A stretch of DNA of 64,000 nucleotides from Serinicoccus hydrothermalis. Its GTDB lineage: Bacteria; Actinomycetota; Actinomycetes; Actinomycetales; Dermatophilaceae. Where the stretch lies: positions 2,542,001 through 2,606,000 of the forward strand of contig NZ_CP014989.1 of the NCBI RefSeq assembly GCF_001685415.1. Direction: 5' to 3'. Positions within the stretch are counted from its first letter, which is position 1. Every line of letters begins with the position of its first letter. The position numbers and the translations under genes are program-made. Below are positions 10,351-61,182 of the stretch, piece after piece. The notes under the pieces were generated by a model. The model ran no database searches. It was not told the DNA's origin and saw nothing but the letters and a program-made list of their open reading frames with translations.

Positions 10351-11804
10351 GCACGACCTTCCACGCCGCCCACGCCCACCTGCCCACCGGTGTCACCGCC
10401 GACGTGCGCATCGCCGTCGAGGACGGTCGGATCACCGCGGTGGGCGAGGGCATACCCGCGGCCGAGGGCGACCACCGCCTCCCCGGGATCGTGCTCCCCG
10501 GACTGGCGAACGCGCACAGCCACGCCTTCCACCGGGCGCTGCGCGGGCGGACGCACGGCGGTGGCGGGACGTTCTGGACCTGGCGCGAGACGATGTATGC
10601 CGTCGCCGCCCGGCTCGACCCGGACCGCTACCTCGCCCTGGCCCGCGCGACCTATGCCGAGATGGCGCTCGCGGGCATCACCGCCGTGGGCGAGTTCCAC
10701 TACCTGCACCACGGGCCGGGCGGGAAGCGCTACATGGACCCCAACGTCATGGGGAAGGCGCTCGTCGAGGCGGCCGCCGAGGCCGGGATCCGGCTGACGC
10801 TGCTGGACACCTGCTACCTCGCCGGGGGACTCGACGGCGCGGGGCACACCGAGCTGGAGGGCACGCAGCTGCGCTTCGGCGACGGCGACGCGCAGACCTG
10901 GGCGCTGCGGGTCGAGGACCTGCGCGACCACACCGACGGCGGACCGGAGCACGTGCGGGTCGGTGCCGCGATCCACTCGGTGCGGGCCGTGCCCCGCGAC
11001 CAGCTCTCGACCGTGGCCTCGTGGGCACGCACAGCAACCCCCACCCCCGACCGGACACCCCTTCTCACCCCCGACCGGACACCCCTTCCGTCCGCAAATT
11101 CGCGGACGGAAGGGGTGTCCGGTCGGGAGGTGGCTGGGCGGCGTGGGCCGGCTGGGCGGCCGGTGCACGTGCACCTGTCCGAGCAGCCCGCCGAGAACGA
11201 CGCCTGCCTCGCCGCGCACGGCCTCACCCCGACCGGGCTGCTGGAGGCCGAGGGGGTGCTCGGGCCCGACCTGTCCGCCGTCCACGCCACCCACCTCACC
11301 GAGCGCGACGTCGCGCTGCTCGGGCAGCACCGGTCCACCGCCTGCTTCTGCCCCACCACGGAGCGCGACCTCGCGGACGGCATCGGCCCGGGGCGGGCGC
11401 TGCGCGACGCGGGAGCCCGGCTGTCGCTCGGCTCGGACCAGCACGCGGTCGTCGACCTGCTGGAGGAGGCCCGGGCGCTGGAGATGCACGAGCGGTTGGC
11501 GAGCCTCGAGCGGGGCCGCTTCGCCCCCGCCGACCTGCTGGCCGCGGCCACCGCGCACGAGAGCATCGGCTGGCCGGACGCCGGCCGGATCGAGGTCGGT
11601 GCCCGCGCCGACCTCGTCGCGGTGCGCGACGACACGGTCCGCACGGCCGGCTGCGACCCGGCCCAGGTCGTGCTCGCCGCGAGCGCTGCCGACGTCGACA
11701 CCGTGGTGACCGACGGGCGGGTCGTCGTGCAGGACGGGCGGCACCGGCTCGGCGACGTCGGCCGGCTGCTCGCAGGCGCCATCCACCCGCTCCTGAGCGA
11801 CTGA
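10347..11804 (+). CDS. hutF: Formimidoylglutamate deiminase, with an inserted repeat-encoded segment
   Basis: Amidohydrolase-superfamily enzyme that deiminates N-formimino-L-glutamate to N-formylglutamate. At 485 aa it is somewhat longer than the roughly 450 aa usual for HutF. Metal ligands and family blocks are visible: LPGLANAHSHAFHRALRGR, GEFHYLHH, VHLSEQPAEN, VHATHLTERD and SLGSDQHAVVDLLEEAR. Between HSVRAVPRDQLSTVASWA and GRPVHVHLSEQ lies a low-complexity segment of about 40 residues (TPTPDRTPLL and RTEGVSGRE) encoded by the palindromic repeat at 11046-11127; it is in frame and the flanking motifs are intact. The GTG start overlaps the stop of the M20 gene; hutI follows after 24 nt. Confidence 0.9.
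   Translation: MSTTFHAAHAHLPTGVTADVRIAVEDGRITAVGEGIPAAEGDHRLPGIVLPGLANAHSHAFHRALRGRTHGGGGTFWTWRETMYAVAARLDPDRYLALARATYAEMALAGITAVGEFHYLHHGPGGKRYMDPNVMGKALVEAAAEAGIRLTLLDTCYLAGGLDGAGHTELEGTQLRFGDGDAQTWALRVEDLRDHTDGGPEHVRVGAAIHSVRAVPRDQLSTVASWARTATPTPDRTPLLTPDRTPLPSANSRTEGVSGREVAGRRGPAGRPVHVHLSEQPAENDACLAAHGLTPTGLLEAEGVLGPDLSAVHATHLTERDVALLGQHRSTACFCPTTERDLADGIGPGRALRDAGARLSLGSDQHAVVDLLEEARALEMHERLASLERGRFAPADLLAAATAHESIGWPDAGRIEVGARADLVAVRDDTVRTAGCDPAQVVLAASAADVDTVVTDGRVVVQDGRHRLGDVGRLLAGAIHPLLSD
11046..11127. repeat. Intragenic palindromic repeat inside hutF
   Basis: Arms of 26 nt (11070-11095 and 11102-11127) pair perfectly around a 6-nt A/T-rich loop at 11096-11101. A partial direct copy of the left arm precedes it at 11046-11063. 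The arm starts CCCGACCGGACACCCC. Arms of the same sequence recur singly in the E2 gene (47944-47969, 24 of 26 identical; 48155-48180, 25 of 26) and more diverged in the aminotransferase gene (61044-61069, 20 of 26). Confidence 0.85.
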
Positions 11805-11828
11805 CCCCGGCACGAGAGGATCGAGCCC

Positions 11829-13040
11829 ATGAGCATGCTCATCACCGGCATCCGCGAGCTGGTCACCTGCGACGACACCGTCGAGAACGCGCGCGGGAGG
11901 ACCAACGCGGACCTGACCCGCGGCCTCGGTGTCGTGCCCGACGCCGCGGTCGTCATCGGCGGCGGGAGCGAGGACTCGGCGCCTGCCGTGGAGTGGATCG
12001 GGCCGGCCGACCAGGCGCCCGCCGCGGACTGGGCGATCGACCTCGGCGGCAAGGCGGTCCTGCCCGGTTTCGTCGACAGCCACGCCCACCTCGTCTTCGC
12101 CGGCGACCGGTCGGCGGAGTTCGCCGCCCGGATGACCGGGCAGCCCTACGACGGCGGCGGCATCGCCCTCACCATGGCGGCCACCCGCGAGGCGGGCGAC
12201 GCCGAGCTGCGCGACCTGCTCGCCAAGCGGGTCGGGGAGATGCGCAGCCAGGGCACGACCACCGTGGAGATCAAGAGCGGCTACGGCCTCGACGTCGAGC
12301 ACGAGGTCCGGGCGCTGCGGCTGGCCCGCGAGGTCACCCCCGAGACCACCTTCCTCGGCGCCCACGTCGTCCCGCCGGACCGGCGTGGCGCCGGCGGGCG
12401 GGAGGCATACCTCGACCTCGTCTGCGGCGAGATGCTCGCCGCCTGCGCGCCGTACGCCCGCTGGGTCGACGTCTTCTGCGAACCGGCCAGCGCCCACGCC
12501 TTCGACGGCGAGGAGTCGCGCCGCGTGCTCGAGGCCGGGCGGGACGCCGGGCTGGAGCTGCGGGTGCACGGCAACCAGCTCGGGCACGGCCCCGGTGTCC
12601 AGCTGGCCGTCGAGCTCGGCGCGGCGAGCGTCGACCACTGCACCTACCTCAGCGACGAGGACGTCGAGGCGCTCGCCGGGAGCGGCACCGTGGCCACCCT
12701 GCTGCCGGGTGTGGAGTTCTCCACCCGGCAGCCCTACCCCGACGCGCGCCGGCTCTTCGACGCGGGCGTGGACGTGGCCCTCGCCACCGACTGCAACCCC
12801 GGCACGTGCAGCTCCTCCTCGATGCCGCTCATGATCGCGCTCGCGGTCCGCGAGATGGGGATGACGCCGGCGGAGGCGCTGCGCGCGGCCACCGTCGGCG
12901 GGGCGCGGGCGCTGCGCCGCGACGACGTGGGGCGGATCCGCGTCGGGCAGCGGGCGGACCTCGCCGTCGTGGACGCCCCGAGCGTGCTGCACATCCCCTA
13001 CCGCGTCGGGGTGCCGATCGTGCGCGCGCTGGAGGTCTGA
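11829..13040 (+). CDS. hutI: Imidazolonepropionase
   Basis: Opens the imidazolone ring of 4-imidazolone-5-propionate to give N-formimino-L-glutamate, the third step of the pathway. It is an amidohydrolase-fold protein of 403 aa, the usual length. Metal-binding and substrate motifs include [38 protein letters not shown], the [10 protein letters not shown] block and TDCNPGT. The start is ATG 11829, with GAGAGGA upstream. It is the last gene of the second hut operon; about 75 nt downstream begins the insertion-sequence cluster, so no native terminator can be recognised with confidence. Confidence 0.95.
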
Positions 13041-13189
13041 ACCCGAGCCGGCGCCTCCGACCACGGACGGACGCAGGACGCGACCGCGGTATGACGCGGC
13101 CCGGCCCTCCGCGGCCTAGACGGTATGGAGTGACCGCTCGGGTTGACTGAGGGGTTGCGGGCCGGGGCCTCGCTCACAAGATTCGTGGG

Positions 13190-14335
13190 TTGCCGGGCAG
13201 GGGCCGCCTGCTCGGCCTATCCGACAAGTGTGGGAGGCCCCGGGTGTTTACCGAGCGTACGAGTGTTGGGTTGGACGTGCACGCTCGCTCGGTCGCGGCA
13301 GCAGCGATCGATAGCGACACGGGCGAGTTGATCCAGGCGAGGTTGTCGCCGTCCAAGGAACAGATCACGCACTGGGTTCAGGCTCTGCCTGGGCCGGTCG
13401 CGGTGACATATGAGGCCGGCCCGACGGGTTTCGACCTGTGCCGGGCACTGATGGCGGTCGGCGTCCGGTGCGAGGTCGCCGCCCCCTCGAAGGTGCAACG
13501 CCCGTCCGGGGATCGGGTCAAGACCGACGCCAAGGACGCGGTCCACCTGGCCCGGCTGCTGCGGATGGATGAGATCACTCCGGTGGCGGTCCCCTCGGTC
13601 GATCAAGAAGCCGCCCGGGACCTGGTCCGTGCTCGGGAAGACGCCCGTGGGGACCTGATGCGGACCCGGCACCGCCTGTCCAAACTGCTGCTACGCCACG
13701 GGATCGTCTACTCCGGCGGGGCGGCGTGGACCGGTCGACACGATGCGTGGCTACGCACCTCGGCACTACCGCAGCTAACGTCGGCGGCGACCCGGTTGAC
13801 GTTCGACTCCGACTACGAGGCGGTCCGGGGCACGCTCGCCCGGCGAGACCGTCTCGATGCCCACATCACGCAGCTGGCCGCGGACAGCGAGTTTACCCCG
13901 GTGGTGCACCGACTGGGGTGCCTGCGCGGCATCAGCACCCTGACCGGGTTCGCTCTGGCCGTGGAGATCGGGGACTGGCACCGGTTCACCGGCAACACCA
14001 TCGGCTCCTTCGTCGGACTCGTCCCCTCTGAGCACTCCTCCGGTCAGTCCCGGTCCCAGGGGTCGATCACCAAGACCGGGAACACCCATGTGCGCCGGTT
14101 GCTGGTCGAAGCGGCCTGGCATCACCGGGCCCGCTACCGGATCGGTAAGACCATGCGGGACCGGTGGGACCAGGCCCCGGCAGGTGCCCGGGCACGCGGC
14201 GATGTCGGCAACCGGCGACTGCACGCCCGGTGGGTGAACTTCCTGGAGCGACGCAAGAAGCCGACCATCGCCAACGTCGCTGTCGCCCGCGAGCTCGCCG
14301 GCTGGTGCTGGTCCCTGGCGGTGATGGACGACTGA
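13190..14335 (+). CDS. IS110-family transposase, left copy
   Basis: DEDD-type recombinase of up to 381 aa. The N-terminal RuvC-like domain shows SVGLDVHARSVAAAAID (first Asp), VTYEAGPTGFDLCRAL (Glu) and KTDAKDAVHLARLLR (the Asp pair). The C-terminal IS116/IS110/IS902 domain has LRGISTLTGFALAVEIGD and the conserved serine region GLVPSEHSSGQSRSQGSITKTGN. GTG 13244, just before the RuvC-like block, is an alternative start that removes a basic N-terminal tail. The protein is identical to the inverted copy at 16013-17158 and appears intact, with no frameshift. Confidence 0.9.
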   Translation: MPGRGRLLGLSDKCGRPRVFTERTSVGLDVHARSVAAAAIDSDTGELIQARLSPSKEQITHWVQALPGPVAVTYEAGPTGFDLCRALMAVGVRCEVAAPSKVQRPSGDRVKTDAKDAVHLARLLRMDEITPVAVPSVDQEAARDLVRAREDARGDLMRTRHRLSKLLLRHGIVYSGGAAWTGRHDAWLRTSALPQLTSAATRLTFDSDYEAVRGTLARRDRLDAHITQLAADSEFTPVVHRLGCLRGISTLTGFALAVEIGDWHRFTGNTIGSFVGLVPSEHSSGQSRSQGSITKTGNTHVRRLLVEAAWHHRARYRIGKTMRDRWDQAPAGARARGDVGNRRLHARWVNFLERRKKPTIANVAVARELAGWCWSLAVMDD

Positions 14336-14628
14336 ACCCCACAGTCTGCTGAGTCGAGCCACGGTGGCTGGAAGCAGCGCGTGGAGCGACCCGCGGAACA
14401 CCTATGGGCAGTCAGCCCATGCTGGCCACGCCCGTTCCTAGACACGCGGTCCCGCTCCTTGCCGAACCACCGTCCTGCGGTACCCAACCCGCGCATATCA
14501 GTCAGACCGCGCGTCGCCAACGACACGCTCACCGCCCATCGGCACGACACAGCACGAGGCGCCCGCCCCGATCGCTACGGGACGGGCGCCTCACCCTGCC
14601 ACTTGACAAGAGATCACTCCATATCAGG
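14336..14628 (+). ncRNA. Non-coding 3' end of IS110 element, candidate bridge RNA region (left copy)
   Basis: About 290 nt without a credible gene between transposase stop and element end. It contains a strong hairpin at 14556-14592 (15-bp stem with one mismatch, loop ATCGCTA) and a TTGACA at 14603-14608 near the end. In characterised IS110-family elements a non-coding end encodes a structured bridge RNA that guides recombination, and in IS1111-type members it is the 3' end. That this region encodes such an RNA is inference. Confidence 0.45.
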
Positions 14629-15719
14629 TGTACTCGGCCGTCAGGTTGGTGACAGTCGGCTGGTCGGTGGGAGTCCGCCGAGCGCGCTGTGGCGTCGTTC
14701 AGTGTTGTAGGACTCCAGCCAGGGCGCAAGCGCGTCCCGCCGGGCCTGGTTGCTGGTGAAGGCGTGCCGGTAGGCCCACTCGGTCTGCAGGGTGCGGTTG
14801 AACCGTTCGACCTTGCCGTTCTGCCAGGGGCAGTGTGGCTTGATGAACTTCTGCCGGGCGCCGATGGCGGCGATGGCGTCGAGGAACGCGCGTCCGTGCC
14901 GGTAGGCCAAGGCGTTGTCGGTCATCACCCGCTCGATGCGGGTGATGCCGTGGCCGGCGAAGTAGGCCGCCGCGCGGGTTAGGAAACCGGCGCAGGTGTG
15001 GTCCTTCTCGTCGTCGTGGATCTCGGAGTAGGCCAGCCGGGAGTGGTCATCGACCATCGAGTGCACGTAGTCGTAGCCGATCTTGGCCCGCCGGTTCTTG
15101 TCCGCCGTCGTGGCGGCGCGGCCGTGGGCGCGCCACCCGCCACCGTCGGGGATCTTGCCGATCTTCTTGACGTCGACGTGCACCAGCTCCCCGGGGCCGT
15201 CGCGCTCGTACCGGGTCGCCGTGACCTTGGAAGAGCGGATCACCTGCCCGGTCATCGGGTCCAAGCAGGCCAGGTAGGCCACCCCGGCGCGGCGCAGCAC
15301 CCGGGACACGGTGCGCGGGGCCAGCCCGAGCTCACCAGCGATCCAGTCCTGCCCACGGCGGTGCTCACGGCGGCAGGCCAGGATCTGCTGCTCGACATGG
15401 GACGGGGTGCGGCCGGGACAGGTACGTGGCCGGCTGGAGCGCTCACCCAGCCCGGCGATGCCGTGCTGGTCGTAGCGGGCCAGCCACCGGTGGGCGCACT
15501 GGCGCGAGATGCCCATCGCCTTGGCGGCATGGGCCACGGCCCACCCCTGCTCACGGACCCGCTGCACCAGCAGCAGGCGGCCATGGACGGTCAGACGGGC
15601 ATTAGCGTGGGGCATGAGGACCTCCGGGTTGCGGGCAGTGACTCTCGACAAGCCACACCCCACCCGGAGGTCCTCCTCACGTCAACACCCCACTGTCACC
15701 AACCTCCCGGCCGGGTACA
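14629..15719 (-). mobile_element. IS481-family element
   Basis: 1,091 bp, bounded by 28-nt terminal inverted repeats (14629-14656 and 15692-15719) matching at 25 of 28 positions, beginning TGTAC and ending TTGGTGACAGT. The flanks are ATATCAGG on the left and its reverse complement on the right, because the element lies at the symmetry axis of two inverted IS110 copies; no direct target duplication is seen. Confidence 0.85.
14641..15615 (-). CDS. IS481-family transposase
   Basis: A 324-aa DDE transposase. The N-terminal helix-turn-helix region runs RLTVHGRLLLVQRVREQGWAVAHAAKAMGISRQCAHRW and is followed by a second basic HTH (RRGQDWIAGELGLAPRTVSRVLRR). The rve catalytic core has HVDVKKIG (Asp), MTDNALAYR (Asp) and the NGKVERFNRTLQTEW block (Glu). 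The C-terminal YNTERRHSALGGLPP motif is typical of the family. I placed the start at ATG 15615; the frame extends 16 codons further upstream. The stop codon lies inside the left terminal repeat. The gene looks intact. Confidence 0.92.
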   Translation of the reverse strand: MPHANARLTVHGRLLLVQRVREQGWAVAHAAKAMGISRQCAHRWLARYDQHGIAGLGERSSRPRTCPGRTPSHVEQQILACRREHRRGQDWIAGELGLAPRTVSRVLRRAGVAYLACLDPMTGQVIRSSKVTATRYERDGPGELVHVDVKKIGKIPDGGGWRAHGRAATTADKNRRAKIGYDYVHSMVDDHSRLAYSEIHDDEKDHTCAGFLTRAAAYFAGHGITRIERVMTDNALAYRHGRAFLDAIAAIGARQKFIKPHCPWQNGKVERFNRTLQTEWAYRHAFTSNQARRDALAPWLESYNTERRHSALGGLPPTSRLSPT

Positions 15720-16012
15720 CCTGATATGGAGTGATCTCTTGTCAAGTGGCAGGGTGAGGCGCCCGTCCCGTAGCGATCGGGGCGGGCGCCTCGTGCTGTG
15801 TCGTGCCGATGGGCGGTGAGCGTGTCGTTGGCGACGCGCGGTCTGACTGATATGCGCGGGTTGGGTACCGCAGGACGGTGGTTCGGCAAGGAGCGGGACC
15901 GCGTGTCTAGGAACGGGCGTGGCCAGCATGGGCTGACTGCCCATAGGTGTTCCGCGGGTCGCTCCACGCGCTGCTTCCAGCCACCGTGGCTCGACTCAGC
16001 AGACTGTGGGGT
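15720..16012 (-). ncRNA. Non-coding 3' end of IS110 element, candidate bridge RNA region (right copy)
   Basis: Mirror image of 14336-14628, with the same hairpin at 15756-15792. The same reservations apply: the RNA is inferred from the family, not seen. Confidence 0.4.
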
Positions 16013-17158
16013 TCAGTCGTCCATCACCGCCAGGGACCAGCACCAGCCGGCGAGCTCGCGGGCGACAGCGACGTTGGCGATGGTCGGCTTCTTGCGTCGC
16101 TCCAGGAAGTTCACCCACCGGGCGTGCAGTCGCCGGTTGCCGACATCGCCGCGTGCCCGGGCACCTGCCGGGGCCTGGTCCCACCGGTCCCGCATGGTCT
16201 TACCGATCCGGTAGCGGGCCCGGTGATGCCAGGCCGCTTCGACCAGCAACCGGCGCACATGGGTGTTCCCGGTCTTGGTGATCGACCCCTGGGACCGGGA
16301 CTGACCGGAGGAGTGCTCAGAGGGGACGAGTCCGACGAAGGAGCCGATGGTGTTGCCGGTGAACCGGTGCCAGTCCCCGATCTCCACGGCCAGAGCGAAC
16401 CCGGTCAGGGTGCTGATGCCGCGCAGGCACCCCAGTCGGTGCACCACCGGGGTAAACTCGCTGTCCGCGGCCAGCTGCGTGATGTGGGCATCGAGACGGT
16501 CTCGCCGGGCGAGCGTGCCCCGGACCGCCTCGTAGTCGGAGTCGAACGTCAACCGGGTCGCCGCCGACGTTAGCTGCGGTAGTGCCGAGGTGCGTAGCCA
16601 CGCATCGTGTCGACCGGTCCACGCCGCCCCGCCGGAGTAGACGATCCCGTGGCGTAGCAGCAGTTTGGACAGGCGGTGCCGGGTCCGCATCAGGTCCCCA
16701 CGGGCGTCTTCCCGAGCACGGACCAGGTCCCGGGCGGCTTCTTGATCGACCGAGGGGACCGCCACCGGAGTGATCTCATCCATCCGCAGCAGCCGGGCCA
16801 GGTGGACCGCGTCCTTGGCGTCGGTCTTGACCCGATCCCCGGACGGGCGTTGCACCTTCGAGGGGGCGGCGACCTCGCACCGGACGCCGACCGCCATCAG
16901 TGCCCGGCACAGGTCGAAACCCGTCGGGCCGGCCTCATATGTCACCGCGACCGGCCCAGGCAGAGCCTGAACCCAGTGCGTGATCTGTTCCTTGGACGGC
17001 GACAACCTCGCCTGGATCAACTCGCCCGTGTCGCTATCGATCGCTGCTGCCGCGACCGAGCGAGCGTGCACGTCCAACCCAACACTCGTACGCTCGGTAA
17101 ACACCCGGGGCCTCCCACACTTGTCGGATAGGCCGAGCAGGCGGCCCCTGCCCGGCAA
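16013..17158 (-). CDS. IS110-family transposase, right copy
   Basis: Protein identical over all 381 residues to the left copy (13190-14335), with the same DEDD residues and serine motif, encoded on the opposite strand. Complete identity suggests recent duplication or ongoing conversion between the arms. Confidence 0.9.
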   Translation of the reverse strand: MPGRGRLLGLSDKCGRPRVFTERTSVGLDVHARSVAAAAIDSDTGELIQARLSPSKEQITHWVQALPGPVAVTYEAGPTGFDLCRALMAVGVRCEVAAPSKVQRPSGDRVKTDAKDAVHLARLLRMDEITPVAVPSVDQEAARDLVRAREDARGDLMRTRHRLSKLLLRHGIVYSGGAAWTGRHDAWLRTSALPQLTSAATRLTFDSDYEAVRGTLARRDRLDAHITQLAADSEFTPVVHRLGCLRGISTLTGFALAVEIGDWHRFTGNTIGSFVGLVPSEHSSGQSRSQGSITKTGNTHVRRLLVEAAWHHRARYRIGKTMRDRWDQAPAGARARGDVGNRRLHARWVNFLERRKKPTIANVAVARELAGWCWSLAVMDD

Positions 17159-17229
17159 CCCACGAATCTTGTGAGCGAGGCCCCGGCCCGCAACCCCTCA
17201 GTCAACCCGAGCGGTCACTCCATACCGTC

Positions 17230-17235
17230 TAGGGT
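17230..17235 (+). promoter_or_regulatory. -10 box of sensor kinase gene at the IS junction
   Basis: TAGGGT, 7 nt before GTG 17243. The left flank of the IS compound ends CCTAG and the right flank begins CTAGGGT, so the original site probably read CCTAGGGT and the insertion separated the -10 box from its upstream promoter sequence. Confidence 0.6.
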
Positions 17236-17242
17236 CGACCTC

Positions 17243-18583: not shown

Positions 18584-19287
18584 CCGACGCACCCACCCGG
18601 CTCTTCCTCGTCGACGACCAGGAGCTGGTGCGCGCCGGCTTCCGCATGGTCCTCGACGCGCAGGACGACATGACCGTCGTCGGCGAGGCGGGCGACGGGG
18701 TGCGGGCGATCGAGGCAGTCGCGCAGACCCGGCCGGACGTCGTGCTCATGGACATCCGGATGCCGCGGATGGACGGGGTCGAGACCACGCGCCGGCTGCT
18801 CCAGGGGGCTCCCGCCGGCCAGAGCCCCAGGGTGCTGGTGCTGACGACCTTCGACCTCGACGAGTACGTCTTCGCCGCGCTGCGTGCGGGGGCTTCGGGC
18901 TTCCTGCTCAAGGACGCCGGGCCGGCCGAGCTCCTGGCGGCCATCCGGGCGGTGCACCAGGGCGACGCCGCGATGGCCCCCTCGACGACCCGACGGCTGC
19001 TCGAACGCTTCGTGCCCGACCTGCCCGACGCGCGGGCGGAGGACGCGGCGGCGAACCGGCGCCGTGCCGCCGCCGGACGGCTGGACGTCCTCACCGAGCG
19101 GGAGCGCGAGGTGCTCGAGGCCGTGGGTCGGGGCCTGACCAACACCGAGATCGCCGCCGAGCTCTACCTCGCCGAGGCGACCGTCAAGACCCACATCGGC
19201 CGGGTCCTGCACAAGCTCGACCTGCGCGACCGTGTGCAGATGGTCATCACCGCCTACGAGACGGGCCTCGTCGGCCGCCCAGGCTGA
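18580..19287 (+). CDS. NarL/FixJ-type response regulator
   Basis: A 235-aa cytoplasmic DNA-binding regulator paired with the kinase upstream. The receiver domain has the acidic pocket LVDDQ, the phosphoacceptor Asp in VVLMDIRMPRMDG, the conserved Thr in VLVLTTFD and Lys in FLLKDAGPAEL. The C-terminal LuxR-type HTH reads LTEREREVLEAVGRGLTNTEIA and ends in a recognition helix with TVKTHIGRVLHKL. The most likely target is the ABC exporter operon that starts 113 nt downstream. Confidence 0.92.
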   Translation: MTDAPTRLFLVDDQELVRAGFRMVLDAQDDMTVVGEAGDGVRAIEAVAQTRPDVVLMDIRMPRMDGVETTRRLLQGAPAGQSPRVLVLTTFDLDEYVFAALRAGASGFLLKDAGPAELLAAIRAVHQGDAAMAPSTTRRLLERFVPDLPDARAEDAAANRRRAAAGRLDVLTEREREVLEAVGRGLTNTEIAAELYLAEATVKTHIGRVLHKLDLRDRVQMVITAYETGLVGRPG

Positions 19288-47227: not shown

Positions 47228-48613
47228 TCAGAGGTCGGCGAGCAGGGCCGCCGGCTGCTCCACGCAGTCGGCGACGAGGCGCAGGAACCCGCCCGCCGTC
47301 CCGCCGTCACACACGCGGTGGTCGAAGGTGAAGGACAGCTGCGTCACCTTGCGCAGCTTCACCTTGCCCCGGTGCGCCCACGGCTTGTCGACGATCCGGC
47401 CGACGCCCAGCATCGCGGCCTCGGGGTGGTTGATGATCGGCGTGGAGCCGTCGACACCGAAGACCCCGTAGTTGTTGAGCGTGAACGTGCCTCCGGTCAG
47501 CTCGGCGGGGGAGAGCTTGCCGTCCCGGGCGCGGACCGTGAGCTCGCGCAGCACGGCGGCCAGCTCGGTGGTCGTCATCGCGTCGGCACCGTGCACGACC
47601 GGCACCACGAGCCCGCGCGGGCTCTGCGCCGCGAAGCCGAGGTTGACCGCGCCGTGGTGGACGATCTCGCCGGCCTCGGTGTCGACCGAGGAGTTGAGGG
47701 CGGGGTAGGCTCGCAGCCCGGCCACGGTGATCCGGGCCAGCAGCGGCAGCACGCCGATGCCCGCGTCGGGCCGGGCCGCCTTGAGCGCGTCCTTGGCCTT
47801 CATGAGCCGGGTGGCGTCGACGTCGACCCAGGTCGTGGCGTCGGGGATCTCGCGGCGCGAGGTCGAGAGCCGCTCCACCATGAGCCGCTGCACACCCTGG
47901 ATCGGGATGCGCCGCTCCTCGCCGCCTGCCGACCTGCCCTCCTCCCGACCGGACAGGCCTTCCGTCCGCCCCTTCTGCCGCGACACATCGGGCGTTCGGT
48001 CGCCCGCGGAGGCGAGGTATGCCGTGAGGTCGGCCTTGCGGACCACGCCGGTCGGGCCGGGGGGCACGTCCGCGACGTCGACGCCCTCGTCGGCGGCGAG
48101 CCGGCGGACCAGCGGGGAGATCACGCGCACGGCCACTGGTGTGTCCGATCCGGCGCGGACGGAAGGGGTGTCCGGTCGTGCCGAGGCCGTCGCGCGACGG
48201 CGGCGGCCGCCCGGGCGGGAGCGCCGGGCGGGCTCCTCGCCCGCGCCGTAGCCGATGAGCGGCCGCTCGGGCTCGTCCTCGGGCAGCTCGGCCCCGGCGC
48301 GCTCCTCCTCGCGGTACTGCTCGCCCCCGGCACCCGCCGTGCCGTCCGTCACCGCCACACCGGGTCCGGCGACGACGTCGCCGCCGATGGTGATGAGCGG
48401 CTCGCCGACGGGCAGCACCTGGCCGGCCTCGGCGTGCACCTGCGCGACGGTGCCGGCATACGGGCACGGCACGGACACCGCGGCCTTGGCCGTCTCGACG
48501 GTGACGACCTCCTGGTCGACGACGACCTCGTCACCCGCGGCCACGTGCCACTCGACGATCTCGGCCTCGGTCAGCCCCTCGCCCAGGTCGGGCAGCCGGA
48601 AGACCTGCGTCAT
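47228..48613 (-). CDS. bkdC: Dihydrolipoyl acyltransferase (E2), branched-chain 2-oxoacid dehydrogenase type
   Basis: 461 aa: one lipoyl domain with the modified Lys in VETAKAAVSVPCPYAG (residues ~40-55), a peripheral subunit-binding domain (SPLVRRLAADEGVDVADVPPGPTGVVRKADL) and the acyltransferase domain with active site FDHRVCDGGTAGGFL. Both inter-domain linkers contain peptides encoded by arms of the palindromic repeat also found in hutF: PDTPSVRAG before the binding domain and RTEGLSGREEG after it. ATG overlaps the E1 beta stop (ATGA). No E3 gene is present; complexes usually borrow the common lipoamide dehydrogenase. Confidence 0.9.
   Translation of the reverse strand: MTQVFRLPDLGEGLTEAEIVEWHVAAGDEVVVDQEVVTVETAKAAVSVPCPYAGTVAQVHAEAGQVLPVGEPLITIGGDVVAGPGVAVTDGTAGAGGEQYREEERAGAELPEDEPERPLIGYGAGEEPARRSRPGGRRRRATASARPDTPSVRAGSDTPVAVRVISPLVRRLAADEGVDVADVPPGPTGVVRKADLTAYLASAGDRTPDVSRQKGRTEGLSGREEGRSAGGEERRIPIQGVQRLMVERLSTSRREIPDATTWVDVDATRLMKAKDALKAARPDAGIGVLPLLARITVAGLRAYPALNSSVDTEAGEIVHHGAVNLGFAAQSPRGLVVPVVHGADAMTTTELAAVLRELTVRARDGKLSPAELTGGTFTLNNYGVFGVDGSTPIINHPEAAMLGVGRIVDKPWAHRGKVKLRKVTQLSFTFDHRVCDGGTAGGFLRLVADCVEQPAALLADL
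47944..47969. repeat. Palindromic-repeat arm in E2 linker (C-terminal side)
   Basis: 26 nt, identical at 24 positions to the left arm of the hutF palindrome (11070-11095); the gene reads it on the opposite strand as RTEGLSGRE. Confidence 0.75.
48155..48180. repeat. Palindromic-repeat arm in E2 linker (N-terminal side)
   Basis: 26 nt, identical at 25 positions to the right arm of the hutF palindrome (11102-11127). A decayed partner, GTGTGTCCGATCC, precedes it at about 48140. The gene reads it as RPDTPSVRAG. Confidence 0.78.
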
Positions 48614-53870: not shown

Positions 53871-53884
53871 GGCGTCTTCCGCCG

Positions 53885-54730
53885 TCAGGAGGGCGACGGG
53901 GCGCGGCGGTGCTCGTCACCGAAGCCCGGGTGCAGGTCCGGTGGGCCAGATGTGCCCTCGGGGTTGAAGCGGTATCCGACGCTCCGGACGGTCTCCACCA
54001 TCTCGCCGGCCCCGTGGGCGCGAAGCTTCCGCCGCAGGCGGCTGACACGCGACTCCAGGGCTCTGCGGCTGATCGTCTGCTCCTGCAGCTCGATGGCCAG
54101 GGTCCCTCGGGTCACGAAGACCCCGGGCCTCCCGGTGAGTGTCAGGAGCAGGTCGAACTCGGCCCGGGTGAGATCCACCTGCTGCGTGCCCAGGTGGACC
54201 GAGCGGGACTCGGGATCGATGTGCAGACGCGGGACGGAGGGGGCGGGCTCGATCAGCCACCCGCTGGCGTGGCGGAGCAGTGCCTCCAGCCTGGCCGCGA
54301 GGATCCGCACCGGAGTGGAGGAGCTCACGACGTCCTGGGCACCGCGCTCGAGCAGGGTCGCCTCGAAATGAGGCGTCAGGTCGTCGACCACCACCATCGT
54401 GGCCACCCTGAACTCCTCGAGCCAGCGTTGGGCGTCGAGGAGGTCGGCCGAGACCGGCCCCCCGAGCACGATCGCCGCCCCGGGCCGGTGGTGGTTCAGG
54501 AGCCCGCGGAGCGCCTCGAAATCGATGACCTCCGCCTGGGCCTGGCGGCGCTGGAGCAGCTCCTGGCTGCGTCGCACTTCGGCCGGACCGGCACCCACCG
54601 GGATGAGCCAGACCATAAATTCCAGGTTCATGCGCGACGTGGGGGACGCCATCACTGCCACGGGCGGTCTCCGAGCTGGACGTTGTCGCCGACGAGCAGG
54701 AGCGTTCTCCGCGACAGCGCCGCCCAGCAC
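53885..54730 (-). CDS. OmpR/PhoB-type winged-helix regulator with degenerate receiver
   Basis: Up to 281 aa. The C-terminal domain (about residues 165-260) is a PhoB-type winged helix: VDLTRAEFDLLLTLTGRPGVFVTRGTLAIELQ...SRRALESRVSRLRRKL...VETVRSVGYRF. The N-terminal half looks receiver-like (AAIVLGGPVSADLLDAQRWLEEFRVATMVVVDD) but has no obvious phosphoacceptor Asp context or conserved Lys. No sensor kinase is adjacent. GTG 54730 follows GAAGG by 6 nt; ATG 54652 or 54631 would remove a basic N-terminal tail. Confidence 0.75.
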   Translation of the reverse strand: MLGGAVAENAPARRRQRPARRPPVAVMASPTSRMNLEFMVWLIPVGAGPAEVRRSQELLQRRQAQAEVIDFEALRGLLNHHRPGAAIVLGGPVSADLLDAQRWLEEFRVATMVVVDDLTPHFEATLLERGAQDVVSSSTPVRILAARLEALLRHASGWLIEPAPSVPRLHIDPESRSVHLGTQQVDLTRAEFDLLLTLTGRPGVFVTRGTLAIELQEQTISRRALESRVSRLRRKLRAHGAGEMVETVRSVGYRFNPEGTSGPPDLHPGFGDEHRRAPSPS

Positions 54731-54818
54731 CGTGAGCCTTCAGTGGCCACCGCCCCCATCGACATCCTCTCTCACCGCCGTGCCCCGACGGCGTCGAGGC
54801 CCCGGCAAACCTGCAAGT

Positions 54819-54848
54819 AGAGTAAAGAAGACGTAAAGAAAAGGTCAA
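54819..54848 (-). promoter_or_regulatory. Promoter upstream of winged-helix regulator
   Basis: Minus-strand TTGACC (54843-54848) and TACTCT (54819-54824) separated by 18 nt, with a direct repeat CTTTACGTCTT / CTTTACTCTA around them. The remainder of the 54731-55072 gap holds no supported gene. Confidence 0.5.
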
Positions 54849-55072
54849 GAGAGGGTTAGGGCGGATGGGTGCTCAGGGGGTCCTCGCCATCATCTTCGGG
54901 TGCCCGCCGAGCTGACACCGCTTCGGGGCCCGCAGGTCTCCGCGGCACCTCCGACCGCGTACAGACGTCGACGCTTGCCGCTCCGTCAGCAGGGGAGCGG
55001 GGCAACACCTTCGCGCGCAACCGAGATGCGGGCTCTGGGAGAGGTCGAGCGCGCCGCCACCACCTTCTCGGT

Positions 55073-57214
55073 TCAGGGCTGGAGGAGCACCTCGCGCAGC
55101 TCCGGTGCCAGGAACTCGGAGTAGCGTGCCGTGAGGTGGTTGCCATCGGCGCGAACCGGGATGTCGTCGACGAACGCCGGACACAACCCGTCTGATCGAC
55201 AGAACCAGTCGCGAGTTGAGACATAGCGCGCGCCCTCTGTGGCTTGCGCAGCCCCAAGCTCAGCCTCACTCTGGAGGGTCCAGTTCTCGCCGATCGTCGA
55301 GGTGCAGGAACTCGGCCCGTTGAACCTGGTGACGCATCCCTGGAGGTTGACGCCTTCGGGGGGCGGAGCAAGCACGACGACATCCCGTTCTGGGGCCACG
55401 AGCCGCTTCAAGGTGCGCTCGGTGGCGGTTCGCCACTCGAGCACGGCGCCGCGCTCCGTAGCGCTGGAGGTCAGCCGACCCAGAGAATTCTCGGCGCTGG
55501 ACAGTACGACGAGATCGGGGGAGTAGTCATCAACCTTCTCGTTGCTCCAGTCCTGAAACGTCTGGCATCTTCCCGCGAAGTCGGCAGCTCCTCCCAAGTC
55601 ACTCACAGACGCAGCGACTGCCGGGCACTGGCCCATGGTGATGAGGACCACCTCGTAGTCCGCGTCACTCAGAGCCTCACGTATGCCAGCCATCCAGCTG
55701 ATGGCGACCGAGTCGCCAAGGACGACGGCGGTCTTACTCGCTGGTCCCTCATAGGTACATCTTTCGAGATCGGCGTCGGACACGTCGATGCAACCATCCT
55801 GCGTCCATTCTGGTGCCTTCGAGTCTTCGAGGTTCTCGAGGGGGACAGCGAACTGCGGCCAGTCTGTCCGCTCCAGGGCGATACTGATCTGCTGCTCAAT
55901 ACTCTGCGGTGCCTCTTCGGCCTGCTCGTGTTCCTCCGCGGGCCGATCCAGGGTGGCTGCCGACGTCGCCGGCGTGACGTCTGGCCACGCATGTAGAACG
56001 GATGCGTACGCAGCCCCTCCGGTCAGGGGGAAAAGGATGGCAAGGACCGTAGTCTGAATCTTGAAGCGGCGGCGTCGCGCGGCGTTACCGATTCTCCGAC
56101 GGGCCGCGGGGGTCAGCCAGGCAGACCGCCGGATGGGGTCTTCGACAAGGTGGTAGCTCAGTGACGCAAGGACAAGTGACAGGGCTAGGGCTGTCAAAAC
56201 GTAGGGTAAAGAACCCTCGCGGATAAATGGTTGAAGAAAAACGACTACGGGCCAGTGCCACAGGTAGAGAGAGAATGAAATGCGGCCCAGGTAGCGAGCT
56301 GGACGATTCGTCAGCAAAGAGTTCAGGCCATCACTGGGTGCCCCGATCCCACTCGCAACGATGAGAAGCGTGCCAGCGACGGGAAGGAGGGCCCAAGGTC
56401 CGGGAAAGTCCCAGTCGGGAGTGAGCATGAGGCCAGCGGCGATGATGATGCCGAGGCCGAGGTGGCTTGCCCAGAGGTGTACTCGCGGGTCGCGTGTCCG
56501 AAAACGTGAAGCGGCCACCGCCAGCAACCCGCCGAGACCCAACTCCCAGGCGCGGGTGAAGGTGGAGAAGTAGGCTGTGGAAGGACTTTGTAGTGTTTCT
56601 ACCATGGCCCAGGCCAGCGAGGCGGCTGTCACCATGCTGAGAACGATGAAAACCCGTCGGCGACCCATCTCGGAGCGGCGACGTCCTCCTAGCGAGAGGG
56701 CACCGAGCATGAGGAGCGGCCAAACGAAATAGAACTGTTCCTCGACCGCGAGTGACCAATAGTGCTGTAGAGGCGAGACTGCGCGATCGGCGGCAAAGTA
56801 GTCTTGGCCCACCAAGATGAAACGCCAATTCGCAGAGAAGAAGGTCGCGTACACCGCGTCCATCATGATCTGGTTGAGTCGCGGACCCAGGAACACAAGG
56901 TAGGACGTGGCCGCGGTCGCAGCAATGACCAGCATGGACATGGGGAAAATTCGCTTGACCCGCCTGGCATAGAAAGCGCGAAAAGAGATGCCCCCGGTGC
57001 GCTCGAACTCCTTCAGAAGAAGTCCAGTGATGAGGAATCCGGAAAGGACGAAGAAGACGTCGACGCCGATAAAACCGCCCTTGGGCCACCCAATGACGTG
57101 GTCGAGCAGGACCAGGACGACTGCCAGGGCACGAAGGCCCTCTAGGTCGGTGCGGAACCGAGTCGTCGCCGAAGCTCTAGCCGTCGCCGCCGTCGCACCT
57201 GTGTCTGGTCTCAT
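55073..57214 (-). CDS. OafA/YrhL-type acyltransferase with SGNH domain
   Basis: 713 aa. The N-terminal acyltransferase-3 domain has about ten membrane helices and the signatures FRTDLEGLRALAVVLVLLDH, GGFIGVDVFFVLSGFLITGLLLKEFERTG, and HYWSLAVEEQFYFVWPLLML. After a soluble linker (Glu-rich, ~residues 405-440) the C-terminal SGNH domain follows: TAVVLGDSVAISWMAGI (GDS) and DNIPVRADGNHLTARYSEFL-like ending with the D...H pair. The protein probably transfers acetyl or similar groups to an extracellular polysaccharide or peptidoglycan. GC content is visibly lower than in flanking regions. Confidence 0.9.
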   Translation of the reverse strand: MRPDTGATAATARASATTRFRTDLEGLRALAVVLVLLDHVIGWPKGGFIGVDVFFVLSGFLITGLLLKEFERTGGISFRAFYARRVKRIFPMSMLVIAATAATSYLVFLGPRLNQIMMDAVYATFFSANWRFILVGQDYFAADRAVSPLQHYWSLAVEEQFYFVWPLLMLGALSLGGRRRSEMGRRRVFIVLSMVTAASLAWAMVETLQSPSTAYFSTFTRAWELGLGGLLAVAASRFRTRDPRVHLWASHLGLGIIIAAGLMLTPDWDFPGPWALLPVAGTLLIVASGIGAPSDGLNSLLTNRPARYLGRISFSLYLWHWPVVVFLQPFIREGSLPYVLTALALSLVLASLSYHLVEDPIRRSAWLTPAARRRIGNAARRRRFKIQTTVLAILFPLTGGAAYASVLHAWPDVTPATSAATLDRPAEEHEQAEEAPQSIEQQISIALERTDWPQFAVPLENLEDSKAPEWTQDGCIDVSDADLERCTYEGPASKTAVVLGDSVAISWMAGIREALSDADYEVVLITMGQCPAVAASVSDLGGAADFAGRCQTFQDWSNEKVDDYSPDLVVLSSAENSLGRLTSSATERGAVLEWRTATERTLKRLVAPERDVVVLAPPPEGVNLQGCVTRFNGPSSCTSTIGENWTLQSEAELGAAQATEGARYVSTRDWFCRSDGLCPAFVDDIPVRADGNHLTARYSEFLAPELREVLLQP

Positions 57215-57277
57215 GGGAATGACTGCTGCTTTCGCTGAAGATGGATCCTGAGGACGACCGGAGGGGAGGGCCAGGCC

Positions 57278-58693
57278 CTACTGAACCTGGAGGGAATGGG
57301 TGTCGTGGTGCGTGGGTGGCGACTCGGTGGGCGCCGTTCTGTTGGGCGTCCTGATCGAAGGAAGGGCATGACGCTGCGCGCGCTGGTAGGAGGTGGTCGA
57401 GCAGTAGTTGAAGATGACCCCGAGTAGCGGCGCGCCGCTGTTCTCCAGGGCAGCGGCACTCTGGCCGACCTCTCGCCGCGTGGTGGCCCGACGGTCAACT
57501 CTGATAACAAAGAGCGTGCCGGTGCACATCTGAGACAGGATGGCGCCCTCCGTCGCAGGGATAAGTGGCGGAGTGTCGAGGATGACGACGTCGTAGGTGG
57601 TCTCCAGCTCGCGGATGACAGGCAGGGTTGATTCCCGTGCGAGTAGATCTGCGGGATTGGGGGGTGCCGAACCAGCAAGGATGACGTCGAAACCATGGCG
57701 AGAGCGAACGGTGACCGAGTCGAGGTCAGCGACACCGACGAGCACGTCGGTCAGTCCCATGGTCTCGGCGAGTCCGAGACGTTGCGCGGCACTGGGGTGA
57801 CGAAGGTCGGCCTCGACGTAGCACACCCTGTGGCCTGCGTTGGCCTGCGCTGCAGCCAAGCTGAGTGCGATGGCTGTCCTTCCATCGTCCCGACGTGCGG
57901 ACGTGATGACGAAGGAACGACCACCTCGGGGAAGAGTGAGGAACTGCAGCCCCGTTCGGAGTTGTCGGATGGACTCGGAGCACACCGCACTTTCGAACAG
58001 ATCCCCGGGATCGCAAGCGGCTTCGTCTAGCGGCACATGGGCGAGGATGGGGGTTGCTAGCAGCTCTTGCACTTCTGCCTCGGTCCTGACGCGCCGGTCT
58101 GCCACACGCCGAATGAGAGCGTAGGAGACGCCTACGGCACTCCCGACGAGAAGGCCGAGGAAAAGGTTGAGGAATGGTCGCGGACTGGCGGGACGGCCCG
58201 GCTGTGTGGCTGACTGAATGACGGTGGCCTCGATGACGGAGGAGCCGTCAGCTCGTTGAGGATCCAGCGAAGCGGAGACCTCCTGAAAACGTGCTGCGAC
58301 CGCGTTCGCCAACTCCATGGCCTCTGCCGAATCATCGGACCGAGCGGTGATCTCGATGACGACGGTCTCCTCGACCACGAGCGTGGAGATGTCCGAAGAG
58401 AGATCCGGGACGGTGGTGTCCAGGTCCAAGTCATCGATGACTGCTTGGAGCACGAGACCGGAGTTCATGGTCTGGGCGTACGAGTCCATACGATCCATGA
58501 CGTAGGCAGAGCTCTGCAGCAGTTCAGCGCTGCTGGTGCCGCCTTGCTGCGCAACGAAGATCTCTGAGGTGGCTTCGTAGACTCGCTCAGTAGCCAAAGT
58601 GACACTGGACGCGACGATGCCACCGACCAGGGTCGCCGCAAGTATGGAGAACCATCGAGCTCGCAATGCGATATATGTCGTGCTTGTCTGCAT
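57278..58693 (-). CDS. Wzz-type chain-length regulator fused to BY-kinase-like domain
   Basis: 471 aa. The N-terminal Wzz part spans two membrane helices (SILAATLVGGIVASSVTLATERVYEATSEIFVA and FLNLFLGLLVGSAVGVSYALIRRVADRRVRTEAEV). The C-terminal CapB-like domain has Walker B DVVILDTPPLIPATEGAILS but a degenerate Walker A, SARRDDGRTAIALS, with Arg in place of the catalytic Lys and Asp for the first Gly, and VEADLR for the usual VDADLR. The C-terminal tail has no tyrosine cluster. It may act as a non-phosphorylating copolymerase for exopolysaccharide. Start at ATG 58693. Confidence 0.85.
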   Translation of the reverse strand: MQTSTTYIALRARWFSILAATLVGGIVASSVTLATERVYEATSEIFVAQQGGTSSAELLQSSAYVMDRMDSYAQTMNSGLVLQAVIDDLDLDTTVPDLSSDISTLVVEETVVIEITARSDDSAEAMELANAVAARFQEVSASLDPQRADGSSVIEATVIQSATQPGRPASPRPFLNLFLGLLVGSAVGVSYALIRRVADRRVRTEAEVQELLATPILAHVPLDEAACDPGDLFESAVCSESIRQLRTGLQFLTLPRGGRSFVITSARRDDGRTAIALSLAAAQANAGHRVCYVEADLRHPSAAQRLGLAETMGLTDVLVGVADLDSVTVRSRHGFDVILAGSAPPNPADLLARESTLPVIRELETTYDVVILDTPPLIPATEGAILSQMCTGTLFVIRVDRRATTRREVGQSAAALENSGAPLLGVIFNYCSTTSYQRAQRHALPSIRTPNRTAPTESPPTHHDTHSLQVQ

Positions 58694-58792
58694 ACAGCCT
58701 CCACGGACGGCTTCTGTCCCCCTTCCCCAAGGGCGACCACGTGGAAGACTACCCCTGTGAGCCGTCACCTGTAACCATGACCTCTGATCTCT

Positions 58793-59989
58793 TTACTGGA
58801 GCCAGTGCTGCTCCGGCAGGGCGTGGGAGAGGAAGTGGCTCATCGCCTGCGTGTAGGCGTAGGCGCCGGTCTGGCCGAACACCACGACGTCGCCGGGCCG
58901 CAGGTCCTCCGGCAGGTCGCCGGTGCCGACGCGGTCCAGCGAGGTGCACAGCGGTCCCGCGAGCGTCGTCGTCGTCCGTTCCCCGCTCAGGACCCCCTCG
59001 CCGGGGCGCACCGCCAGGGTCGGGAACGACTGCCCGGTCAGCAGCGGCCGCAACAGGTGGTTGATGCCGCCCTCGAGCATGACGAAGCGCTCGCCGCGGG
59101 AGACCTTGGTGCGCACGACCCGAGCGGCGTAGACGCCGGTGGGTCCGGAGAGCCAGCGGCCGGGCTCGAGCAACAGCTCGCCGGTGAACCAGTCGTTCTC
59201 GCCGAGGATGCGCCCGAGGCCCGCACCGACCGCCCGGACGTCGAGGTTGGGCTCGGTCAGGGCATACCGGATCCCGAGACCGCCGCCGAGGTCGACGAGG
59301 TCGAGCTCGCGGCCCAGCAGCTCCTGCAGCCGTCGCCCGATGCGCAGCGCCGTCCGGTGGTTGGCCAGCAGCCGCCCGGCGTCCAGCTCGTTGCTGGCCG
59401 AGAAGACCTGGAGCCCGCGGATCTCGACCCGGTCGAAGCGCGCGGCCTCGGTCACGAAGGCCTCCAGCACCTCCTCGTCCACCCCGAACGCGCTGGGCCC
59501 GACACCACCGATGATGCTCGCCACCTCGGACACACCCCCGGCGGGGTTGACCCGGACGTTGACCGCCAGCGGGGTCTCGCCGGTGTGCAGGGCGTGCAGC
59601 CGCTCGACGTCCTCGATGCCATCGACCTGGACGCGGGCCCCGGCGAAGAGGGCGGCCTGCAGGTCGCGCTCGGTCTTGGCGGGGCCGGCGAAGACCATGC
59701 CGGCGCCGGTGCCGCCGGCGGCCAGCGCGGCCGACACCTCACCGGCGCTCGCGCAGTCGAACCACGCGCCCCGGCCGGCGAAGGCCTCGAGCAGGGGCAA
59801 CCCGGGGTTGGACTTCACGGCATACGCCAGGCGGACCCGCGCGGGAAGGGCGGCGCGGAGCCGGTCGAAGCGCTCGCGTGCCGCCGCCAGGTCGTAGGCG
59901 AAGAACGGGCCAGGGTGCGAGGTGGCCAGCTCGTCGAGCCTCGCCTCGTCGAAGGCGAAGAGGTCAGTCGTCGCAGCGGTCAAGATCAT
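58793..59989 (-). CDS. PLP-dependent (fold type III) amino acid decarboxylase
   Basis: 398 aa. PLP Lys is in LAYAVKSNPGLPLLEAF; CASAGEVSAAL, DLGGGLGIRY and EPGRWLSGPTGVY are the other family blocks, and GPLCTSLDRVG holds the second-subunit Cys. It resembles diaminopimelate decarboxylase but the C-terminal GAY motif continues to FLSHALPEQ rather than the YNxRPR pattern of LysA, a feature I associate with the BtrK and exosortase-linked decarboxylases. Last gene of the dap-like operon; a DAP-related substrate is likely, but LysA function is doubtful. ATG 59989 overlaps the aminotransferase stop (ATGA). Confidence 0.8.
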   Translation of the reverse strand: MILTAATTDLFAFDEARLDELATSHPGPFFAYDLAAARERFDRLRAALPARVRLAYAVKSNPGLPLLEAFAGRGAWFDCASAGEVSAALAAGGTGAGMVFAGPAKTERDLQAALFAGARVQVDGIEDVERLHALHTGETPLAVNVRVNPAGGVSEVASIIGGVGPSAFGVDEEVLEAFVTEAARFDRVEIRGLQVFSASNELDAGRLLANHRTALRIGRRLQELLGRELDLVDLGGGLGIRYALTEPNLDVRAVGAGLGRILGENDWFTGELLLEPGRWLSGPTGVYAARVVRTKVSRGERFVMLEGGINHLLRPLLTGQSFPTLAVRPGEGVLSGERTTTTLAGPLCTSLDRVGTGDLPEDLRPGDVVVFGQTGAYAYTQAMSHFLSHALPEQHWLQ

Positions 59990-61182
59990 GCCTTCCACCA
60001 GGGCGCCAGGCGCCGGAGTCCTTCCTCGAGCGCGTCCACCGGACCACCCAGGCTCACGCGGAGGAAACCCGCTCCTCGCGGTCCGAAGGCGGTCCCGGGG
60101 ATCGTCGTCACCCCGGCCTCGTCGCGCAGGCGCAGGGCGAACGCCTCGGTGACAGCAGGGTCGTCGCGCGAGGTGGAGTCGTCGTCGAGGTCGTGGGGCA
60201 GGGCGAGCCAGAGGTAGAACCCGGCCCTCGTCGCCGTTCTGGACATGGGAATGTGGTGCCCGTCGCCCAGAAAGCTATGTCCAGAAGTGAGGAGCTGGGG
60301 GGCGACCCGGTCGACCGTCCCCCAGCGCACCCGGATCTGCTCGCGGGCTGCGGGTAGCACGTCCCCGGCCGCGCCCAGCAGCCCCAGCGCGGCAGCCTGC
60401 GAAAGTCGCGAGGGGGCCGTCGTCATCGCGTTGTGCACCAGCCGTGCCGAAGCGAGCATTTCGGGGTCCCCGAGCGCCCAGCCGATCCGCAGCCCCGGGG
60501 CGGCGAAGGCCTTGCTCATCGAGCTGAGCACGACCCCCGCCGCGCTCACGTCCCGCAGCGACGCGGGGCGCCGGTCGGCCCACAGCTCGGCATACACCTC
60601 GTCGCTGACGAGCAGCACCCCGCGCTCGGCGCAGGCCTCGGCGACCCGCGACAGGGCTTGCGCCGAGGCGAGCCCGCCGGTCGGGTTCGCCGGGTGGTTG
60701 AGCACGACGATCGAGGTATGCGGCTGCTCGCCCAGCAGGGCGACCAGCGCCTCGGCGTCGAGGTCTCCGCTGGCGGCGAGGGGGTAGCCGACGGGCGTCG
60801 CGCCGCACAGCCGGGCGAGGGTGGGGTAGGCGACGAAGCCGGGGTCGGGCACGAGCACGGCCGATCCGGGCTCGGCATAAGCCTGGAAGAGCGCGAAGAG
60901 CGCCGCCTGGCTGCCGGCGGTGACCATGACCCCGTCCGGACCGACCGTGTCCGCACCGCGGGCCTGGGCGTAGCCGGCGATCGCGTCCACCAGCGCCGGG
61001 TCGGAGGTGTTGGGCCCGTAGGACAGGTCGACCGAGCCCTCGTCCGGACGCACGGCCTGTCCGGTCGGCAGCGGCCACCCGGGCTCGCCGAGCCCGAGGT
61101 TGATCGCGTCCGGCGGGGCGCCGAGCGACATGCGTCGGATGGGTGACAGGCCCTGGCCCGCCACCCTGGAGGCCGTCCTCAC
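59986..61182 (-). CDS. Aminotransferase class I/II (DapC-like) with two repeat-encoded inserts
   Basis: 398 aa PLP enzyme of fold type I. The substrate/cofactor blocks are [41 protein letters not shown], the PLP-Lys segment [16 protein letters not shown], and [21 protein letters not shown] near the end. Position between dapD and the decarboxylase suggests N-succinyl-2-amino-6-oxopimelate transamination. Two unusual segments interrupt it: [11 protein letters not shown] (residues ~38-48), encoded by a repeat arm shared with hutF, and [15 protein letters not shown] (~298-312), encoded by another inverted repeat. GTG 61182 overlaps the dapD stop (GTGA). Confidence 0.83.
60237..60286. repeat. Intragenic inverted repeat in aminotransferase gene
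   Basis: TTCTGGACAT (60237-60246) and ATGTCCAGAA (60277-60286), perfect 10-bp arms around 30 nt; the interval is less GC-rich than the gene and encodes the extra loop [15 protein letters not shown]. Confidence 0.7.
61044..61069. repeat. Palindromic-repeat arm in aminotransferase gene
   Basis: 26 nt matching the right arm of the hutF palindrome at 20 positions, including the whole TGTCCGGTCGG core; read by the gene as PTGQAVRP. Confidence 0.55.

Follow-up and report, generated by a model that had tools for sequence, protein, structure and literature searches.

A dispersed, lineage-restricted repeat in and behind genes of Serinicoccus, read as a REP/BIME-like family tolerated in proteins

REPs of the GTAG and CGTC classes are known from eight phyla, in which they form dimers and clusters behind genes, and in several species they occur inside genes as well; those of the CGTC class have no dedicated transposase and include RPE-4 and RPE-6 as well as, under the name CGTC-1, the dRS3 repeats of Neisseria (Di Nocera et al. 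2013, PMC3733652). The phylum Actinobacteria is absent from the text of this paper (0 occurrences of the word). The repeat analyzed here resembles REPs and BIMEs in its short units with a conserved head and a variable rest, its dimers and clusters, its position behind genes, its copies inside genes, and its species-specific families, and it resembles the CGTC class in that no dedicated transposase (PF01797) was found. It differs from them in a head that is neither GTAG nor CGTC, in the frequency of direct arrays, and in its actinobacterial host. With the Rickettsia palindromic elements, compared by behavior and not by sequence, it shares in-frame palindromic inserts in unrelated proteins, while host and the arrays of 22- to 33-nt units are different; with Neisseria dRS3, compared by description and not by sequence, it shares short palindromic units mostly found in large clusters, while tag and host are different. 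The likeness to Rickettsia proposed in an initial sequence-only reading of this DNA is apt, but the precedent is wider, as it includes the GTAG and CGTC REPs within genes of several species (PMC3733652).

The window, i.e., the whole stretch of 64,000 nucleotides that was analyzed, corresponds to positions 2542001-2606000 of a contig of 3597394 bases, which is the genome as searched (G000). The following features are referred to below:

4176-4211, no strand: perfect 36-bp palindrome formed by two convergent GACCGGACATAC heads, immediately 3′ of the upstream gene's stop codon
10347-11804, plus strand: hutF, formimidoylglutamate deiminase, with a three-unit cluster (gene call, Pfam, alignments; start codon approximate)
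11049-11070, plus strand: first unit, GACCGGACACCCCTTCTCACCC, degenerate with 3 mismatches, read DRTPLLTP
11070-11095, plus strand: unit forming the left arm of the hairpin, read DRTPLPSA
11102-11127, minus strand: unit forming the right arm of the hairpin, read RTEGVSGR
47228-48613, minus strand: E2 component of a 2-oxoacid dehydrogenase complex with lipoyl, E3-binding, and catalytic domains (gene call, Pfam)
47944-47968, plus strand: unit in E2 linker 2, antisense, read RTEGLSGR, 2 mismatches
48156-48180, minus strand: unit in E2 linker 1, sense, read RPDTPSVR, 1 mismatch
61045-61066, minus strand: sequence resembling the unit in an aminotransferase gene, excluded from the copies

The sequences reported earlier in hutF, in E2, and between genes were located again by search. 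The hutF hairpin (11070-11127) and its partial direct copy correspond to the three units given above, the single arms in both E2 linkers were found with 1 and 2 mismatches, and the intergenic palindrome, which had been said to share the core, proved to be perfect and built of two convergent heads. What does not stand is the palindrome as the unit: the countable unit is an arm of 22-33 nt, which occurs singly, in direct arrays (mostly with a period of 31-34 nt), and in convergent pairs. It has a head that is conserved, GACCGGACA, and a tail of greater variability whose last letters, GTCCG, are complementary to a portion of the head. Within the window, the 25-nt arm has 4 matches at up to 3 mismatches (0.00 expected), and the head has 8 (1.58 expected). 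A whole-genome search, which had been proposed as a check, returned many further copies, with 40 matches to the arm at up to 3 mismatches in 3.6 Mb (22 forward and 18 reverse; 0 for the reversed control) and 76 matches to the generalized unit GACCGGACANNCCTTNNGTCCG (2 for the control).

The repeat is real, genome-wide, and restricted to its lineage. At 2 mismatches, 66 matches were found in the own genome, 32 in the sister genome G021, 5 in G016, and 1 each in G001 and G006, with none in 19 of 23 same-genus genomes and 0-2 per genome for the reversed control. An exact search for the head in 31 genomes of the genus yielded 134 matches in G016, 30 in the own genome, 8 in G048, and 5 in G021, with 1 each in four others and none in the remaining 23. 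G021 shares the unit, and the other carriers, G016 and G048, have variants of it. In a sample of 297 genomes from the order, in which the genus is represented only by the own genome and G048, a search at 1 mismatch gave 49 matches in the own genome and a single match in each of 4 of the 296 others.

In stretches fetched around the genome matches, 80 sites (up to 4 mismatches) were grouped into 43 clusters, 21 of which lie in genes called with a simple codon-usage caller, 4 overlap gene ends, and 18 lie between genes. After 5 in-gene matches had been set aside (the aminotransferase match and four others, each with 3-4 mismatches), 16 convincing in-gene clusters in 13 genes were retained, including one at 1504923 with 2 mismatches and no Pfam domain, which may be due to chance. 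Besides HutF and E2, the carriers include a CydDC-like transporter (a name that is ours and not the library's, given for two ABC_tran stretches with a membrane domain), an ABC ATPase, an AMP-binding enzyme, an enoyl-CoA hydratase, a MobA-like transferase, a maltokinase/branching-enzyme reading frame, and a GT28-like protein. The earlier observation that the repeat is translated in different frames and on both strands extends to the whole genome, where all three frames in both orientations are present, antisense frame 2 being represented by one copy only. Of 13 unit strings, 11, including the common unit, are free of stops in all six frames; the two others, both from G016, contain stops in 2 frames and 1 frame, respectively.

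Comparison with several relatives covers 4 of the 13 genes, namely HutF, the CydDC-like transporter, the ABC ATPase, and E2, and judging by these alignments the unit lies in variable segments, with most relatives lacking it there. For HutF, the Pfam scan identified Amidohydro_1, with HutF_N slightly below the cut-off, and matches were obtained from Serinicoccus and Ornithinimicrobium. The locus was readable in 23 of 28 cases (the own genome, G021, and 21 others; nothing readable came from G005, G048, G023, G012, and G018), and among the 22 besides the own, a match at up to 4 mismatches was found in G015 only, which may be due to chance. The alignment with homologs suggested earlier places the unit in a variable segment, absent from most relatives. 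In the nearest relative, G021 (87%), the loop is shorter by 90 nt; the site there retains TCCGGTCG, so that a loss in G021 is possible. The length of the loop varies greatly among species, those without the unit included, and in the AlphaFold model residues 231-268, located between a helix and a strand, have a pLDDT below 50.

The two E2 units are convergent, and among the 17 of 26 loci that were readable they were found in G000 and G021 only, with one ACCGGACA in G004 lying within a different unit. Linker lengths vary here as well, also in species without the unit. The E2 linkers of other species hold repeats of their own, with units of similar head in G001, G004, and G016, all of which have the forward direction in linker 1 and the opposite one in linker 2 (read by eye for G016); the repeats of G049 seemingly run in one direction, contrary to this convergence. 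The CydDC-like gene carries two three-unit clusters, the first of which is absent from G017 and G021, with other sequence at this place in G048 and G010, while the second is absent from G017 and G048 (the frames extracted from G021 and G010 stop earlier). The same CydDC-like gene also contains, at positions 11150-11220 of locus L259, an in-frame palindrome of another kind (arms TGGTGCAGGAACGGTGCTGCG), and comparable sites exist in G017 and G010. For the ABC ATPase, five genomes have a nearly identical core and different tails, with the units present in G000 and G021 and absent from G017 and G010; the tail in G048 reads PTGQAF and PTGQAV, which fits the variant unit of that genome. None of the four genes compared showed the same peptide encoded by unrelated DNA.

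The initial reading had counted three unrelated genes in the window, of which hutF and E2 stand and the aminotransferase does not, leaving two. Serinicoccus chungangensis (L187) has the same DNA, the same peptide PTGQAVRP, and the same context as the stretch at 61045-61066, and no other unit match was found in its genome (G045) at 2 mismatches. The stretch is therefore probably not an insertion and was set aside as a repeat copy; most simply, to go by this comparison, it would be shared coding sequence that resembles the unit, the alternative being an old shared copy. In its main point, a dispersed palindromic repeat in loops and linkers of unrelated genes, the earlier proposal is borne out, with termini to be added to the sites and relatives mostly without the unit.

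Between genes, 13 of the 18 clusters lie at most 32 nt from the 3′ end of a gene, and 3 lie between divergent genes. The palindrome at 4176-4211 follows a gene with a Lyase_aromatic domain, taken as hutH; it should be noted that the called start codon of urocanase (window position 4201) is inside this palindrome, so the true start may be located downstream. Neighboring units in opposite orientation are mostly convergent, with 12 convergent vs. 2 divergent pairs in G000, 4 vs. 0 in G021, 10 vs. 2 in G016, and, read by eye, 2 vs. 1 in G004 and 2 vs. 0 in G001, in sum 30 vs. 5 for the five genomes (binomial 1.1e-5); an array of G004 in L365 diverges, contrary to this rule. Direct neighbors are more frequent still (17 direct vs. 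12 convergent in G000, where they make up 17 of 31, and 13 vs. 4 in G021). Neighboring units are more alike than random ones (0.70 vs. 0.51), direct and convergent ones equally, and a constraint on convergent arms as hairpins was rejected, as their likeness is no greater than that between direct neighbors. Alignment of orthologous stretches of G000 and G021 shows gain or loss of unit-sized pieces between the sister species, since a gap of 27-44 nt appears beside units in 11 of 14 aligned pairs (seven in G021 and four in G000). As one such case, L162 and L175 differ by a 42-nt duplication in an apparent protein N-terminus.

Folding the arms as RNA, another check that had been proposed, gave -67.1 kcal/mol (z -12.2) for the hutF pair (11066-11131), while the fold of a single unit is weak, with a 5-bp stem and a 9-nt loop. 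No covariation was found in this stem, and a single-unit RNA structure was rejected. An Rfam scan of two loci gave no match at the gathering threshold.

Other species of the genus have different units with a similar head (~SACCGRNC) and a period of 22 or 32-33, mostly converging, some of which occupy the same E2 linkers. For the main unit of G004, 26 matches at 3 mismatches, several arrays among them, were found in a 400-kb sample (control 5), many of the single matches in genes possibly being due to chance. The E2 unit of G001 has 13 matches at 5 mismatches in a 308-kb sample (control 1) with only two arrays, E2 and one other, and that of G004 has 13 (control 2), most of which lie in E2 itself or are distant matches. 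A further family of G001 with a 29-nt period is without this head (18 matches, control 2). In a filtered survey of tandem repeats in five genomes, the head was present in 18 of 24 arrays with a period of 22 or 31-34 vs. 1 of 33 arrays with other periods (Fisher 7e-9), head and periods having been chosen after part of the data had been seen. For G002 and G011, samples uninspected beforehand except for their E2 linkers, the corresponding values are 7 of 8 vs. 1 of 17 (Fisher 0.00013). The head is only approximate because G001 arrays beginning with CGACCGACG escape the pattern. The family is thus probably part of a larger superfamily in this genus, whose architecture is similar and whose tails differ among related species. 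More tentatively, though as a possibility that we take seriously, this could be a third REP-like superfamily, with head ~SACCGRNC, period 22 or 32-33, and species-specific tails, that extends across a whole actinobacterial genus; E2 linkers and ABC ATPase tails would hold each species' variant, as if unit families had replaced one another genome-wide, moved or homogenized by something other than a Y1 transposase. An array of G004-like units with a 32-nt period was also observed inside a called MFS transporter gene (L444, 17082-17177), where the reading frame changes from one unit to the next, since a period of 32 is not divisible by 3.

Set against the described classes (PMC3733652), the conserved unpaired end is a GAC before the stem in place of an unpaired GTAG or of a CGTC, TGTC, or CCTC end, and CGTC is confined to the 3′ arm of the stem in some variants. 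CGTC REPs have stems of 8-9 bp, loops of 4-5, and negligible HT dimers, whereas here the stem has 5 bp and the loop 9 nt, and direct neighbors account for 17 of 31 in G000. GTAG REPs go together with a Y1 tyrosine transposase (RAYT) in the genome; PF01797 had 0 matches in 23 genomes, the own included, and 0 in 3 further carriers, in a search that covers G016, G021, and G048 and that was positive in 5 of 14 reference genomes. RAYT was therefore rejected as the mover. In a broad sense the family is REP-like, with many short units, mainly behind genes, in dimers and clusters, single-unit palindromy being weak, and it acts in the manner of RPEs, being in frame in unrelated proteins and absent from orthologs (HutF, CydDC-like, ABC ATPase), with the E2 and ABC ATPase units common to G021. 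The best reading is a REP/BIME-like superfamily of an actinobacterial genus that is tolerated in proteins. As intragenic REPs have been published (PMC3733652), it is of a known kind, here more widespread than initially seen; a search of open-licence papers found no description of this repeat.

The combination of no Y1 transposase, no covariation in single units, and neighbors that are alike in either orientation favors local duplication plus dispersal, and we consider it likely that the arm is the unit of a REP/BIME-like family that was dispersed, then duplicated locally, and is tolerated in proteins. Copies would arise by a dispersal step, with transposition or copying as the probable source, after which tandem and inverted duplication would act locally. 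They would persist, presumably as near-neutral sequence, where harm is small, i.e., directly 3′ of stop codons and in the loops, linkers, and tails of proteins, and entry into genes would be eased by the common unit being free of stops in six frames. At gene ends, they may act in RNA. Against this reading stand the negative search for PF01797 and the lack of covariation in the stem of the single unit; no target-site duplication was noticed, short of a systematic search, and many unit sites are common to G000 and G021, so that insertions need not be recent. The earlier term "selfish" is not upheld, as no mobilizing enzyme (PF01797) was found and no insertion was caught in the act. Compatible with the preferred reading, and a serious rival if a rather unlikely one, is a binding site for a DNA-binding protein, with arrays selected for cooperative, helically phased binding. 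Head and GTCCG are strongly conserved and show no pairing covariation, which would suit such a site, as would array periods that cluster at 22, 32-34, and 42-43 (at 10.5 bp, the concentration R is 0.76 for n = 55, and 0.59 with p 0.00035 for n = 25 when each period is kept once per genome). However, with R at 0.74 for 10 to 11 bp and still 0.69 for 9.5 and 11.5, the value of 10.5 does not stand out; periods of 26-27, 35, and 37 occur too, the list was compiled by hand and includes some in-gene arrays, 22 and 33 may be mere unit lengths, and a location inside and behind genes is odd for a regulator.

That convergent pairs are terminators or 3′-end stabilizers, spread by their usefulness behind genes, would explain very stable hairpins directly 3′ of stop codons, but direct neighbors exceed convergent ones in G000 and G021, the likeness between convergent arms does not exceed that between direct neighbors, and copies in mid-gene are left unexplained, which makes this explanation distinctly unlikely. 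We regard as similarly improbable a miniature element of a non-Y1 transposase with the heads as inward-facing ends: the convergent orientation, several G016 arrays with inward arms around a core, and the IS110 and IS481 transposase genes in the window speak for it, whereas single units are frequent, and the stretches read showed no element that is bounded by these heads and contains a transposase gene. Ordinary slippage in low-complexity linkers could account for the local unit-sized gains and losses, yet one unit in unrelated genes and intergenic sites, nearly absent from the sampled genomes of the order, already contradicts it for the dispersed copies, and it is hardly tenable. Should the REP/BIME-like reading be right, Actinobacteria would join the hosts of protein-invading REP-like DNA, and a natural comparative experiment would be at hand, with about thirty related genomes, different unit families, and some shared protein sites. 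The units would then show where proteins tolerate new segments, and they would raise the question of what moves or homogenizes REP-like units without a REP transposase.

Several other repeats were seen alongside. Two inward-arm arrays of G016 (L244 and L245) have cores that share CGCTGACGTTGACGTCAA and perhaps represent a larger mobile unit. At window positions 13115-17233, an IS481-like transposase gene is enclosed by a 1548-bp stretch that is present twice in inverted orientation (99.7% identity) and carries an IS110-family transposase gene (one copy scanned). A second family of arrays (unit ~GACCGGCCGCACGGTTTGCG, convergent) lies between convergent genes at positions 8140-8330 of L263, with dozens of match rows listed in G048. 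A long near-perfect hairpin around CACTCCTAC and GAGGAACA is located behind a gene at positions 2286-2360 of L259, with similar places in G048 and G021. Finally, the 8-mer GGTATGCC occurs 48 times in the window on both strands (e.g., at 987, 3532, and 48016; 1.8 expected) and 228 times in 400 kb of the own genome (117 plus, 111 minus; 8.8 expected), in all gene frames. It is not enriched in 72 loci mostly from other genera (2 vs. 5.0), while the four sister genomes sampled are enriched (39-129 vs. 7-8); its density is reminiscent of DNA-uptake or HIP1-like words.
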